Shown here piece after piece: positions 2,558-43,412 of a stretch of DNA of 64,000 nucleotides. The stretch lies in assembly GCA_024684515.1 (NCBI GenBank), contig JAIKWS010000035.1, positions 42,178-106,177 on the forward strand, given 5' to 3'. The translations under genes and the position numbers were made by a program. This stretch comes from Prevotella sp. GTDB taxonomy: Bacteria; Bacteroidota; Bacteroidia; Bacteroidales; Bacteroidaceae. Under the pieces are notes generated by a model. It was not told the origin of the DNA. It searched no databases and worked only from the letters and a program-made list of their open reading frames with translations. Position 1 is the first letter of the stretch. Each line of letters starts with the position of its first letter.

Positions 2558-2605
2558 GCTCCTCACTTGGACAGAACTCAATTGAAACAGAAAAAGAACA
2601 GTAAT

Positions 2606-4345
2606 ATGAAAATGAATAGAACAAACAGAAAGTCCAAGACCTTACTTGCTGGACTTGGAGCTATCATATTCCCTGTTACATTCGTAGGAGCTGGCATGCT
2701 CTTCACGGCTTGTTCCGACATGCTCGACACTACGTCCGAACTGGTGGAATTTGCCGAGGACAACACGCTTGACCATCCTACCGACTCCGTATACAGCGTG
2801 CTGGGCATCGTCAATCGCATGCAGATCATTGCCGACCGCACTGTACTGTTGGGCGAGGTGCGTAGCGACCTCGTGGAGACCACCGAGGCGGCTACTGCCG
2901 ACATGAAGCGACTGGCTGCCTTCGACTTCTCGCAGCCCAATAAGTACAACCAGGTGAGCGACTACTATGCCGTCATCAACAACTGCAACTACTACCTCGC
3001 CAATGTCGATTCGGCACTGCAACGTCGTGGACGCCAGCTCTTCAAGTACGAGTATGCTGCCGTGAAGGCTTTCCGTGCCTGGGCTTACCTGGAGCTGGTG
3101 AAGAACTATGGACAGGTGCCCTTTGTCACACAACCTGTGCTGACAGAGCGAGAGGCAGAGGATGCTCGGCAGGGACAGCGGGCCACCATCAGCGAGGTCT
3201 GCGACTACTTCATTGCCGACCTCACCCCCTATGCTCTCGTCGACCTGCCTCAGTATGGTACTATAGGCAGCTACAGCTCGCAGTATTTCTTCATACCTAT
3301 GCGTGCACTGCTGGGGGACCTCTGTCTCTGGGCGGGGCACTATACGGAGGCAGCACGGTGGTACAACAGTTATCTGAATGACGAGAAACAGCCTGTGGAG
3401 CAGAACCCCAGCAACCGCATCCGCTGGACCAGTGTCACCGACTTCCAGCGTCCCAGTGATGCCTATAGCGTACAGTCGACACGTGAGTACCTCAGCTTCA
3501 TTCCTATGGAGGAACGAGTGTTCGACGGTACAGTCAGTGAACTGCCGAATATCTTCCAGTCGACACAGGAGAACAACTACTTCTACCAGCTGACACCATC
3601 TGCCGGCATGCGTCGTCTCTCTGCTAGCCAGATTTATTGCATGGAGTACAAGACAGAGACAACCACCGACACGGTCTATGTACCACGAACAGGGCTCACC
3701 GAGGACCTACTGGTGGGAGACTTGCGTCTCTATTCGAATTTCAGACAGACGGCTGTTGGTGGACAGGATGAGTATTCTGAGTACAACACACTCAGGCAGA
3801 CGATGCAGAAGCTTAGCACCACGAGGGTGCTCACCTATCGCAGCCCTATCATCTACCTGCGCTATGCCGAGGCTCTCAATCGTGCCGGCTATCCCCAGTC
3901 GGCAATGTGCATACTGAAGCATGGCCTCTGTGACGATAATGCCCACGAGTATATCGACAGTCTGGAAAGGGTGGCGGCTGGAAGCCTCATCAGTTTCGAT
4001 GCAACATTGTTTACCAAAGAGACGACACTGGGCATACACTCACGTGGTGCTGGCGATGCCAACTGCAATGCCTACTACTCGCTACCTATGCCCGACCATC
4101 AGCTTGCCAGCCGGCAGGACACCATCAACTATCAGATACCACTGGTGGAAGACCTCATCGTCAACGAGCTTGCACTGGAGGGTGCCTTCGAGGGCTATCG
4201 CTTCCACGACCTGATGAGGGTGGCACTGAGACGTGGCGATCCTGCCTATCTTGCCGATCCCATCAGTCGTAGAGGAGCTGACCAGGATGGACAGTTGCGT
4301 GCTCTGCTCATGGATACCAACAACTGGTACCTGCCATTGCAGTGA
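2606..4345 (+). CDS. SusD/RagB-like nutrient-binding outer-membrane lipoprotein
   Basis: Lipobox-like LFTACSD, SusD features (AFRAWAYLELVKNYGQVPF, RYAEALNRAG, EGAFEGYRFHDLMR); start likely ATG 2606 rather than 2567. Confidence 0.93.
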   Translation: MKMNRTNRKSKTLLAGLGAIIFPVTFVGAGMLFTACSDMLDTTSELVEFAEDNTLDHPTDSVYSVLGIVNRMQIIADRTVLLGEVRSDLVETTEAATADMKRLAAFDFSQPNKYNQVSDYYAVINNCNYYLANVDSALQRRGRQLFKYEYAAVKAFRAWAYLELVKNYGQVPFVTQPVLTEREAEDARQGQRATISEVCDYFIADLTPYALVDLPQYGTIGSYSSQYFFIPMRALLGDLCLWAGHYTEAARWYNSYLNDEKQPVEQNPSNRIRWTSVTDFQRPSDAYSVQSTREYLSFIPMEERVFDGTVSELPNIFQSTQENNYFYQLTPSAGMRRLSASQIYCMEYKTETTTDTVYVPRTGLTEDLLVGDLRLYSNFRQTAVGGQDEYSEYNTLRQTMQKLSTTRVLTYRSPIIYLRYAEALNRAGYPQSAMCILKHGLCDDNAHEYIDSLERVAAGSLISFDATLFTKETTLGIHSRGAGDANCNAYYSLPMPDHQLASRQDTINYQIPLVEDLIVNELALEGAFEGYRFHDLMRVALRRGDPAYLADPISRRGADQDGQLRALLMDTNNWYLPLQ

Positions 4346-4388: not shown

Positions 4389-4417
4389 AAATGCAGTCAG
4401 CAATGGCTGCATTTTTT
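4389..4417 (+). terminator. Intrinsic terminator downstream of susD
   Basis: AAATGCAG-N10-CTGCATTT followed by T-run. Confidence 0.7.
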
Positions 4418-4718: not shown

Positions 4719-4806
4719 TCCGCCCTGCCTAGGAACAAAATATTCCCACCTTGGGAATATTTTGTTCCCAGCCTGGGAAGAAATTATTCCCACCTTGGGA
4801 ATACAT
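4719..4806. repeat. Array of 22-bp-period palindromes (TTCCCA-N3-TGGGAA cores)
   Basis: TTCCCA starts at 4743, 4765, 4787 (exact 22-bp spacing), degenerate unit at ~4721; 4732-4768 is a perfect 17-bp-arm hairpin with 3-nt loop. Confidence 0.85.
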
Positions 4807-4901
4807 TTTTCGTAAGATTCCCAAGTCTGACGGAAGAAAACCAACCTCTGCTAGATAGTAACTCTTTCTGACAATAATACAACTGCTAAGCATTTTTCAT
4901 C

Positions 4902-4934
4902 CATAGGCCTACCATAGACCTACCATAGACCTTC
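4902..4934. repeat. 11-bp tandem repeat (CATAGRCCTAC) x3
   Basis: CATAGGCCTAC CATAGACCTAC CATAGACCTTC. Confidence 0.8.
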
Positions 4935-5217: not shown

Positions 5218-7677
5218 CTATCTGGTTTGTTCAACAGCAGACTCGTCCATAAACAGATGGGAGGGAAGATAGCCTCCGAAGTCAACGACAATCTTCTCGA
5301 AGACGATGCCTGGATGCTTCGGACAGATGGTCAGCGTATGCACATCGGCCTTGCCTACCGGCACTTCCACCACCTTCTCGACAATACGACGGGCTACGGC
5401 AGGATAGAACTCGCTGTACATGTAGGGCTGGCGATCGACCAGCGTCTTGTTGAAGTTGATGGTCTGTGGTTCTGAGCCATCGAGGCTGACGGTATACTCA
5501 TGTCCTCCGATATTGAGGAAGTCGAGTGTCGACTTGACCACCACATGCACTTTCACCCGTGCCGGAGCATCGTTTGGCAGACGGAACTGGTAGCTGAGCG
5601 AGGCACCATCGACGGGCTGCGTATAGGGTGTCAGTGCCACGGCACTGCGTGTGCGGCCATAATAGGGATAGACCGTCCACTGTGTGCCCTCAGGAGCGAT
5701 GGCACTGGCATAGTGCTCGGCCTCCATAGCTACATAGCCATTGCTGGGCTGGAAGAGCCAGCCTCCTTGTTGCCCTGCTTTCACCTGTTTGGTGGCTGGC
5801 ATCATGTCGCGTGGGAAGTCATCATTCCACTGTCTATAGCCTATGTGCTTCTGTGTCATCATGCCATCCCACTTGCCACCGGCAATGTCCTTGTTGTACT
5901 GGCGACAGAGCAGTGAGTCGCGACGGAAGCACTGTGCTACTCGCTGTGCCCACGCATTGGCATCAGGATTGCCTTTGCTGGCCAGGTAGCGGTTCATGGC
6001 CTGGGCATAGTACATATCGTAGAGGTTGGCCATGCCCTGTACTGGGAAGAGGATAATCTGCCGATAGAAGTCACGAGCCTCGGCAGGTATGTCGTCGAAG
6101 AGACGTAGTGCCCTCAGTTCAAGCCGCTGATAGGCATCAGCCACCTGTTGCCACTCGCCAGTCTCCACATTGTAGGTGCTGGCATCGAGCATCTCGGGGG
6201 TGACACGTGCCATGTACTGGCAGTTCTGGTTGTAGATGTCTGCAGCCTCCTCAGCGATGGCCTTGCTAAAGACGTCGCTGAAGAAGTGCTGTGTGTGCTG
6301 AGTGACATTCTGCTGGTTGTACTCCTTTGGGTTCCATGCCATGTCCATGAATAGCTGTATGGGATATTCCATTGGCTTGAGATCACCCACGTTGAGTATC
6401 CACATGCGGTGGATGCCGAAGTCGTAAGCCAGCGAGAGCTGTTCGAACATCTGCTGTGTCTGTGTGACGTTGAGCCACTTTGAGTTGCGTGGTGCTCCTA
6501 CATAGTCGACGTGGTAGTAGATGCCCCATCCACCCTTGTGCAGTCGCTCCTCAGCATTGGGCACTCGACGGATGTCGCCCCAGTTGTCATCGCTGATGAG
6601 TACGATGACATCGTCAGGCACACGGAAGCCGGCATCGTAGTAGTCCTGCACCTCCTTGTAGAGTGCCCACACCTGTGTAGTCTTGTTGGCCGGCTTTCCA
6701 GTGACCTGCTTGATAATCTTGCGCTGGTTGCTGATGATCCGCTCCATGAGTCCTGTGTCAGTCTTGTCGCCCATAGCCTCATCGCCATCGCCACGCATGC
6801 CAATGGTCACGATATCCTCGGTGCCCTTCATGCGTTCTATTCCCTCTCTGAAGAACTGGTCGAGCTTCTGCTGGTTTGTCTGATAGTTCCATGCTCCCCA
6901 CTTGTTGCGGTTGCGTGCATACTCCTGATGGTTGCGTGCCATAGGCTCGTGATGGCTGGTTCCCATGATGATGCCCATGCGGTCGGCCGTCTTGCTGTTC
7001 TCTGGGTCGTCGGCATAGAAAGCCCATGACCACATGGCAGGCCACATCATGTTGCCCTTCAGGCGGAGGATGAGCTCGAAGACCTTCTCGTAGAAGCGAT
7101 GATCGCCATAGTTGGTGCCGAAGGTATTCTTCACCCATGACGTGAGACAAGGAGCCTCATCGTTGAGGAAGATACCACGGAACTCGACGGCAGGCTCTCC
7201 ATCGGTAAAGCAGCCCTGTTTGACATAGGCTTGAGAGTGCTTCTCGACAGGCACGTCTGCCCACCAGTACCACGGTGAGACACCCAGCTGCCGGCTGAGC
7301 TCATAGATGCCGTAGATGGTGCCACGACGGTCGCTGCCGGCGATGACTACTTGTCCGTCGATGGTGGTAATGAGGAACTTCTCTCGCATGCCCTTCAGCC
7401 CTGGCAGCTGTCCCTGTTTCACCATGCGGTCGATCTCGGCATTCCTGCCAATGGTGCCCACGAGGATCGCTGCCTCGTGGCCAATCGTCTTCTGCATATC
7501 ACTACGCAGGTTGCCGATGGCAATCAGCACACCCTCATAATCCTGCTCGCTATAGCTGATGGCACCTTGCTTCAACGGCACGGCACCGTCCTGAGGTGTG
7601 AAGGACACAAAAGGCTCTGCCGCCTGCATAGTCAGTACGCAGACGGAGAGCAATAATATTATTCTGAATCGTTTCAT
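5218..7677 (-). CDS. GH115 family glycoside hydrolase (xylan alpha-1,2-glucuronidase)
   Basis: Signal peptide; SDRRGTIYGIYELSRQLGVSPWYWWADVPV, FLNDEAPCLTSW, LRLKGNMMWPAMW, GMRGDGDEAM are typical GH115 stretches. Confidence 0.92.
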   Translation of the reverse strand: MKRFRIILLLSVCVLTMQAAEPFVSFTPQDGAVPLKQGAISYSEQDYEGVLIAIGNLRSDMQKTIGHEAAILVGTIGRNAEIDRMVKQGQLPGLKGMREKFLITTIDGQVVIAGSDRRGTIYGIYELSRQLGVSPWYWWADVPVEKHSQAYVKQGCFTDGEPAVEFRGIFLNDEAPCLTSWVKNTFGTNYGDHRFYEKVFELILRLKGNMMWPAMWSWAFYADDPENSKTADRMGIIMGTSHHEPMARNHQEYARNRNKWGAWNYQTNQQKLDQFFREGIERMKGTEDIVTIGMRGDGDEAMGDKTDTGLMERIISNQRKIIKQVTGKPANKTTQVWALYKEVQDYYDAGFRVPDDVIVLISDDNWGDIRRVPNAEERLHKGGWGIYYHVDYVGAPRNSKWLNVTQTQQMFEQLSLAYDFGIHRMWILNVGDLKPMEYPIQLFMDMAWNPKEYNQQNVTQHTQHFFSDVFSKAIAEEAADIYNQNCQYMARVTPEMLDASTYNVETGEWQQVADAYQRLELRALRLFDDIPAEARDFYRQIILFPVQGMANLYDMYYAQAMNRYLASKGNPDANAWAQRVAQCFRRDSLLCRQYNKDIAGGKWDGMMTQKHIGYRQWNDDFPRDMMPATKQVKAGQQGGWLFQPSNGYVAMEAEHYASAIAPEGTQWTVYPYYGRTRSAVALTPYTQPVDGASLSYQFRLPNDAPARVKVHVVVKSTLDFLNIGGHEYTVSLDGSEPQTINFNKTLVDRQPYMYSEFYPAVARRIVEKVVEVPVGKADVHTLTICPKHPGIVFEKIVVDFGGYLPSHLFMDESAVEQTR

Positions 7678-19485: not shown

Positions 19486-19726
19486 TTTTTTATTAGGTGG
19501 TTGAATTTTCCTGCAAAGGTACAAATTTTTTTCTAATAATCACTTTTCCGCACGTACCAAAGTGTATTTATTATGTTTCGAATTCCTACACAATGGCCAG
19601 CGGTGCAAGTAAGAACGAATCACATCCTTGGATGCCGTTCTCTTTACTATCGTCACAAACCTGCCGAACGCAAGTATCCTCTCCTATTTTGATAAGTCGT
19701 TTTTATGCTATACACAACTTTTTTCT

Positions 19727-19836
19727 CCAGTGCACTCCAGTTTTTTTTCCAGTGCACTCAAAATATTTTTCCAGTGCACTCAAAATTTTTCTACAACGCA
19801 CTCGGGAATTATTTGCTGTGCATTCTAAAAATCACC
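19727..19836. repeat. Array of 22-bp-period units with AGTGCACT palindromic core (5 units, decaying)
   Basis: GTGCACTC-like cores at 19730, 19752, 19774, 19796 (GCACTC), 19818 (GTGCATTC): exact 22-bp spacing. Confidence 0.88.
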
Positions 19837-36652: not shown

Positions 36653-36685
36653 CTCACATTTAGCTCACATTTAGCTTACATCAGC
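36653..36685. repeat. 11-bp tandem repeat (CTCACATTTAG) x2 plus degenerate third
   Basis: CTCACATTTAG CTCACATTTAG CTTACATCAGC. Confidence 0.75.
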
Positions 36686-36770: not shown

Positions 36771-36858
36771 TGAGTGCACTCAAAAAATATTTCCAGTGCA
36801 CTCAAAAAATATTTCCAGTGCACTCAAAAAATACTTCCAGTGCACTCAAAAAATATTT
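36771..36858. repeat. Array of four 22-bp units CCAGTGCACTCAAAAAATATTT
   Basis: GTGCACTC at 36774, 36796, 36818, 36840: exact 22-bp spacing, nearly identical units. Confidence 0.95.
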
Positions 36859-37409
36859 CGACCTGTGCGGTTGAAGATTGATACTTGATGAAAAAAATAG
36901 ACTTTTATCATGACCATTGGCATGAAGCTCACTGGCAGATATCACTTTAGCCAGCCGTGCGCTAGCCACGAGTGAAGGACATCGCGTAGCCACGAGTGAA
37001 GGACATCGCGTAGCCACTCCCCTCCCCTCCTCTTAGGGGAGGGGCTAGTGGTGGGGTCTACAAGACTAACTTCCTATCTGCTTGCGGGCCCACAACGAGG
37101 GCGTCTAGCTCAGGATTCCACAGGTGATGGCAAGCAATGTAGGTGTGTAGGGCTAGGTGTAATAGATAGTTCTGCAGACCCCACCCCTGCCCCATTCCCG
37201 AGCAAGCTCGCCGACCCGTAGCCTTTCCCCTAAGAGGAGGGGAGGGGAGTGGCTACGCGATGTCCGTAACTCGAGGCTACGCGATGTCCTTCACTCGTGG
37301 CTAGCGCACGGCTGGTTAAAGCGATATCTGCCAGTGAGCTTCATGCCAATGGTCATGATAAAAGTCTATTTTTTTCATCAAGTATCAATCTTCAACCGCA
37401 CAGGTCGAA
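36857..37409. repeat. Large inverted repeat: 184-bp arms 36857-37040 / 37226-37409 around a 185-bp spacer
   Basis: Arms align end to end without gaps (TTCGACCTGTGCGGTTGAAG...CTCTTAGGGGA versus its reverse complement) with a few mismatches; contains a 24-bp tandem repeat. Confidence 0.93.
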
Positions 37410-43334: not shown

Positions 43335-43412
43335 CAAGTTTCAAGGAGTTTCAAGTTCCATGGGTTTCAAGTTTCAAGGAGTTTCAAGTTTCAAGGAGAA
43401 AGTTCTAAGTTC
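43335..43412. repeat. TTTCAAG-rich direct repeat (33-bp higher-order period)
   Basis: TTTCAAG at 43339, 43349, 43365, 43372, 43382, 43389; 43339/43372 and 43349/43382 spaced 33 bp. Confidence 0.75.

Follow-up and report, generated by a model that had tools for sequence, protein, structure and literature searches.

Phased 22-bp palindromes in Prevotella: a lineage-restricted, dispersed intergenic repeat with putative protein-binding units

The array of palindromes (TTCCCA-N3-TGGGAA) that lies between a SusD-family gene and a GH115 gene in the window, the 64,000-nucleotide stretch of Prevotella sp. contig JAIKWS010000035.1 analysed here, is a copy of a lineage-restricted, dispersed intergenic repeat of the Prevotella group. 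It stands far beyond chance. At about even odds (a probability near 0.5), its units are sites for a putative dimeric DNA-binding protein, which would bind them cooperatively along one face of the DNA. No description of 22-bp palindromic arrays in Prevotella was found in the open-licence literature.

The sequence-only reading had placed three exact palindromes and a decayed fourth at 22-bp steps, with a perfect 17-bp-arm hairpin at the first of them, and all of these are present (Table 1). A single 22-bp grid holds the four units, and TRF delimits the array as 4732-4801 with a period of 22. In the predicted fold of the array (z = -8.35) the hairpin makes up the main stem. In aligned copies of the element that carries the array (C104, C8, C97 and C124), the place of the decayed unit reads TAGGCAGGG or TAGGCGGGG. 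The array was also said to sit between convergent genes and outside their terminators; this is borne out for susD, because a terminator-like hairpin precedes the array at 4389-4414. The GH115 neighbour has its closest relatives in Prevotella and Prevotellaceae genomes from rumen and gut.

Table 1. Coordinates of the array, its surroundings and two further 22-bp arrays in the window.
Feature	Position	Strand	Basis
Palindromic unit 1, TTCCCA-CCT-TGGGAA = TTCCCACCTTGGGAA	4743..4757		sequence read and pattern search
Palindromic unit 2, TTCCCA-GCC-TGGGAA = TTCCCAGCCTGGGAA	4765..4779		sequence read and pattern search
Palindromic unit 3, TTCCCA-CCT-TGGGAA = TTCCCACCTTGGGAA	4787..4801		sequence read and pattern search; terminator-like score on both strands
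Decayed unit on the 22-bp grid, CGCCCTGCCTAGGAA; minus strand TTCCTAGGCAGGGCG	4721..4735		
Perfect 17-bp-arm inverted repeat, centre unit 1, both spacers included	4732..4768		predicted fold
Remnant of old dispersed non-coding element carrying the array, ~180 bp	4722..4896	-	aligned copies
11-bp tandem repeat (CCATAGACCTA x2.9) adjoining the array	4901..4932		TRF
SusD-family gene, left neighbour (context only)	2567..4345	+	
Terminator-like hairpin 3' of susD (context only)	4389..4414	+	
GH115 gene, right neighbour (context only), convergent with SusD-family gene	5218..7677	-	
Second 22-bp array, core AGTGCACT	19715..19803 (TRF to 19790)		
Third 22-bp array, core AGTGCACT, 4 copies	36773..36859		TRF

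The source genome (G000; 3.37 Mb in 140 contigs, 91% complete) was counted by pattern searches and sampled stretches. It holds the unit TTCCCANNNTGGGAA 23 times per strand, where the reversed pattern used as a control gives 0; these units occur mostly in threes at exactly 22 bp, spread over different contigs. The pattern of two units at this step has 14 matches, against 0 for its control. The proposal that such arrays exceed what shuffled sequence yields was also upheld: TRF returned 24 arrays of period 21-22 from 1.04 Mb of Prevotellaceae loci unselected for arrays, and 0 from each of three dinucleotide-based shuffles of these loci. A strict palindrome scan over 303 kb of the sister species G203 and G118, away from known arrays, gave zero 21-22-bp palindrome runs; strongly palindromic arrays at 22 bp thus form a few dispersed families and are not a general intergenic background.

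Constraint within arrays was compared across G000 and two sister species rich in arrays, G203 and G118. Each array was seeded from a single exact unit, and arrays made up of decayed units only fall outside the count. All consecutive exact units in these three genomes (52/52) are exactly 22 bp apart, and at the other offsets between 12 and 40 bp no unit with at least 9 of 12 arm matches was seen. The tightest figures come from the two sister species only. There, neighbours at 22 bp on either side of an exact unit match its arms at 12/12 positions (n=76), 11/12 (n=1) or 10/12 (n=1), and the remainder lie at background (0-7 matches). Within arrays of G203 and G118 the mean pairwise difference is 0.011 in the arms, 0.388 in the centre and 0.173 in the spacer, which makes the spacer about 15-fold more variable than the arms. 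The corresponding figures for G000 are 0.083, 50.9% and 28.6%; its arms are less strict than those of the sister species, and its old copies use other cores. In G203 and G118 the arm sequence itself is fixed and not pairing alone, and arm changes are not compensatory; the RNA covariation term is negligible (+0.28 kcal/mol). The arrays show the constrained half-sites at a helically phased spacing that mark an operator array, and fixed arms and step with a free centre and spacer would be expected of a dimeric binding site held in a fixed helical phase. The centre variation in G203 is partly of C-to-T type (ACG, ACA, ATG), which could reflect mutation-prone hairpin loops or loop damage rather than freedom from selection, and the identity of the arms could alternatively stem from recent copying or gene conversion.

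A single unit is present in 69 of 200 congeneric genomes (about one third), with copy numbers peaking at 121 in G203 and 88 in G118. Because this distribution is patchy, with the unit absent from the other 131, it is not essential. The two-unit 22-bp pattern was found in 9/36 genomes of the genus and 0/24 others in one sample, and in a second sample, of 293 genomes from Bacteroidales outside the genus, two phased units occurred in none. The identical palindrome recurs across species with different centres and spacers, and the same 12 arm bases stand at dozens of unrelated loci.

The copy in the window forms the core of a non-coding element, about 180-300 bp long, that is old and dispersed; other copies of this element in G000 are C104 (89%), C8 (78%) and C82 (76%), with C97 and C124 weaker. 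Three further copies (C27, C45 and C123) have a common flank different from that of the window copy, and most G203 arrays lack a flank common to one another. At orthologous sites in G203 and G118 the numbers of units are 5/3, 4/1, 3/4 and 3/3, with the arms unchanged; at the 3/3 site the G118 units are identical to those of G203. The array is absent from this last locus in G107, G177, G119 and G112, an observation drawn from few loci, for which the joined-flank DNA search scored two candidates per genome genus-wide. The 4/1 site also differs in its left flank, which matches that beside another array; an insertion or a recombination at the array is therefore possible. At the 3/3 site G182 (L198) and G135 (L204) instead bear a different, TTAAGATATTAAGAG-type short repeat, which suggests an intergenic hot spot.

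Other repeats and genes lie close to the arrays. Tandem repeats of 11 bp often adjoin them; in the window, two such repeats (4901-4932 and 36653-36681) are close to two 22-bp arrays. An ATGGTAGGTCT-type sequence is also found near the arrays of copies C8 and C104, and in G203 the repeats CAACATACACG and CCTAACATAAG form inverted composite structures with arrays. Arrays occur on five viral contigs, with TTCCCA arrays at L242:5633-5691 and L243:3256-3292; the former contig also bears genes for an integrase and a GH19-type lysin. The C93 unit has a reverse transcriptase gene (RVT_1; L036:3860-5056) 206 bp away. G118 carries a promoter-like dispersed repeat with AAAGAAAAGCATGCTTTCTTTTTGC, ending near TAACTTTGC, which has about 45 matches across the genome and flanks one array (L173:10014-10150).

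The core AGTGCACT makes more 22-bp arrays in the source genome, including two inside the window. The pattern GTGCAC-N16-GTGCAC has 25 exact places there; five stand in tandem in G098 (C29:4195-4310), and scattered matches occur in a few other congeners. The flank AACCGCACAGGTCG is shared by a TTCCCA unit (C93) and by GTGCAC arrays (C68 and the window), which links the two families; it is found at 36850-36880 in the window, L036:3600-3640 and L041:4680-4720. Arrays of period 21-22 reach 23 per Mb in the 1.04 Mb of unselected Prevotellaceae DNA, compared with a combined 8.6 per Mb for the six periods next to them; in other families of the order (261 kb sampled) the density of period 21-22 is 3.8 per Mb. 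In some of the Prevotellaceae arrays the palindromic core is quite another, for example TTTTCT..AGAAAA or GTAATCGC..GCGATTAC. The sequence-only reading had suggested searching related genomes for 22-bp palindrome arrays of varying core; the generalisation holds for 21/22-bp tandem arrays, only some of which are clearly palindromic. Since the global palindrome score of the TRF consensus units is weak for many, the period and not the palindromicity is the group-wide feature. The commonest tandem array in the Prevotellaceae loci L047-L126 has a period of 7 (40 of 205 after overlap removal), and periods 14 and 21 are likewise frequent. The window further contains 24-bp tandem repeats at 36963-37017 and 37251-37303, apparently inverted copies of each other, and a 17-bp tandem repeat, CAAGTTTCAAGGAGTTT, of 3.8 copies at 43335-43398.

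The working unit is a 15-bp palindrome that recurs one to six times in steps of exactly 22 bp, or roughly two turns of B-DNA. If the units are sites for a dimeric protein, each palindrome would be bound by a dimer of a sequence-specific protein which reads the arms and leaves the 3-bp centre and the 7-bp spacer unread. The two-turn step would place adjacent dimers on the same face of the helix, leading to cooperative binding that might coat or bend the intergenic DNA. The number of units shifts through gain or loss of whole 22-bp units, and copies spread alone or within larger non-coding elements. That the sites lie on one DNA face had been proposed from the window alone; the fixed arms and 22-bp step, the lack of an orientation preference and the lack of RNA covariation lend this indirect support. 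From these patterns we infer the protein, its cooperative binding and any effect on genes or on the chromosome. A wider version, rather doubtful, would make the arrays part of a hitherto unrecognised chromosome-wide protein-DNA system, in which a nucleoid-type or silencing protein reads intergenic palindromes two helical turns apart, the 22-bp step is kept but the core (TTCCCA-N3-TGGGAA, AGTGCACT or another) has been swapped between lineages, and phages carry the same arrays.

The strongest competing explanation is that the repeat is mobile and plays no part for the host: a non-autonomous element similar to BrickBuilt or BOX whose palindromes serve only the enzyme that spreads it or have spread recently. 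It is rather unlikely, and would account for the dispersed G000 copies with common flanks, the empty sites in relatives, the G203 composites with 11-bp arrays, the arrays on viral contigs and a layout that is the same as in BrickBuilt. Against it, neither terminal inverted repeats nor target-site duplications were seen in the aligned element copies, flanks are not shared by most G203 arrays, and the IS5-type terminal inverted repeat of BrickBuilt (GAGACCTTTGCA-like, at most 2 mismatches) has only 3 scattered matches near 29 arrays. Less likely again is a functionless satellite, in which replication slippage and quasi-palindrome correction make and homogenise 22-bp palindromic units. Sister species do vary in unit number, and 21-22-bp arrays of many sequences are frequent in Prevotellaceae. 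Homogenisation would even out the spacers too, however, and their unevenness makes it a poor fit; nor does it suit arm bases that recur unchanged at unrelated loci and across species. This alternative is quite improbable.

Position relative to genes bears on a further possibility, that 3' untranslated hairpins end transcription or protect mRNA. All 30 arrays examined (30/30) lie between called genes. Every unit folds, the single-strand fold of the window array is strong, unit 3 is terminator-like by score, and 8/22 distances to gene 3' ends are below 50 bp as against 1/34 for 5' ends; these distances are approximate because the gene calls are crude (longest ORFs). On the other hand, among the 28 arrays with both neighbours called, 11 lie in divergent, 12 in tandem and 5 in convergent regions. 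These classes roughly track the length of each intergenic class and reveal no orientation preference, and the divergent arrays in particular speak against an RNA role, as do arms that are fixed in sequence without compensatory change, a constant 22-bp step of no obvious use in RNA, and Rfam matches at the array that are sub-threshold only. Such a role is very unlikely. A structured RNA was rejected on the near-zero covariation and the sub-threshold Rfam matches, and an array of convergent-gene terminators on the unbiased orientation; the convergent setting of the window array does not extend to the family.

The dispersed intergenic repeats of gut and rumen Bacteroidales are poorly described. 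Fixed arms and a fixed two-turn step, together with a free centre and spacer, are a sign of constraint that can be measured, and by it a binding-site array can be told from an inert satellite. If a dimeric protein does read the units, the array is a ready bait for finding it. Unit number, which differs at the same site, is also a candidate marker for typing strains.

BOX elements of Streptococcus pneumoniae are modular intergenic repeats with a central repeat in variable number. The Prevotella arrays resemble them in this modular layout and variable repeat count and differ in unit length, sequence and phylum. REP/BIME elements with their RAYT (Y1) transposases (PMC2817692, PMC3733652) are likewise high-copy palindromes in intergenic DNA, whereas the Prevotella arrays have a fixed two-turn spacing and no GTAG/CGTC-type tag; the foot of the palindrome carries none, and the unit flanks are A/T-rich and variable. 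The Y1_Tnp domain (PF01797) was not found in the source genome (91% complete) by a search that was positive in 5 control genomes. With both transposase gene and tag missing, a RAYT/REP origin was rejected. In Porphyromonas gingivalis W83, 22-nt tandem direct repeats are mentioned without sequence or places (PMC4596501); they can be compared by that mention only, and are alike in unit length and bacterial order.

The closest known kind is BrickBuilt, a minisatellite/MITE of Porphyromonas, described in P. gingivalis by Klein et al. 2015 (PMC4596501) as 1-22.8 tandem units, always intergenic, that are flanked by a leader and tail in only some of the copies. Both repeats belong to Bacteroidales, are intergenic, occupy about 20 dispersed loci, combine conserved with variable positions within the unit and have bigger leader or tail flanks in part of their copies. 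Both are tandem, with units of 23 nt in BrickBuilt and 22 nt in Prevotella, in a copy number that varies between strains; Prevotella arrays hold one to six units, and the number differs between sister species. The arrays were not filed as a BrickBuilt member because the IS5-type terminal repeats were not found. By comparison with BrickBuilt, the Prevotella unit is exactly 22 and is built on a conserved 15-bp palindrome, and the arrays comprise several unrelated core families with a much wider host range within the group. Compared by layout and terminal repeats rather than by repeat sequence, the Prevotella arrays may work like BrickBuilt.
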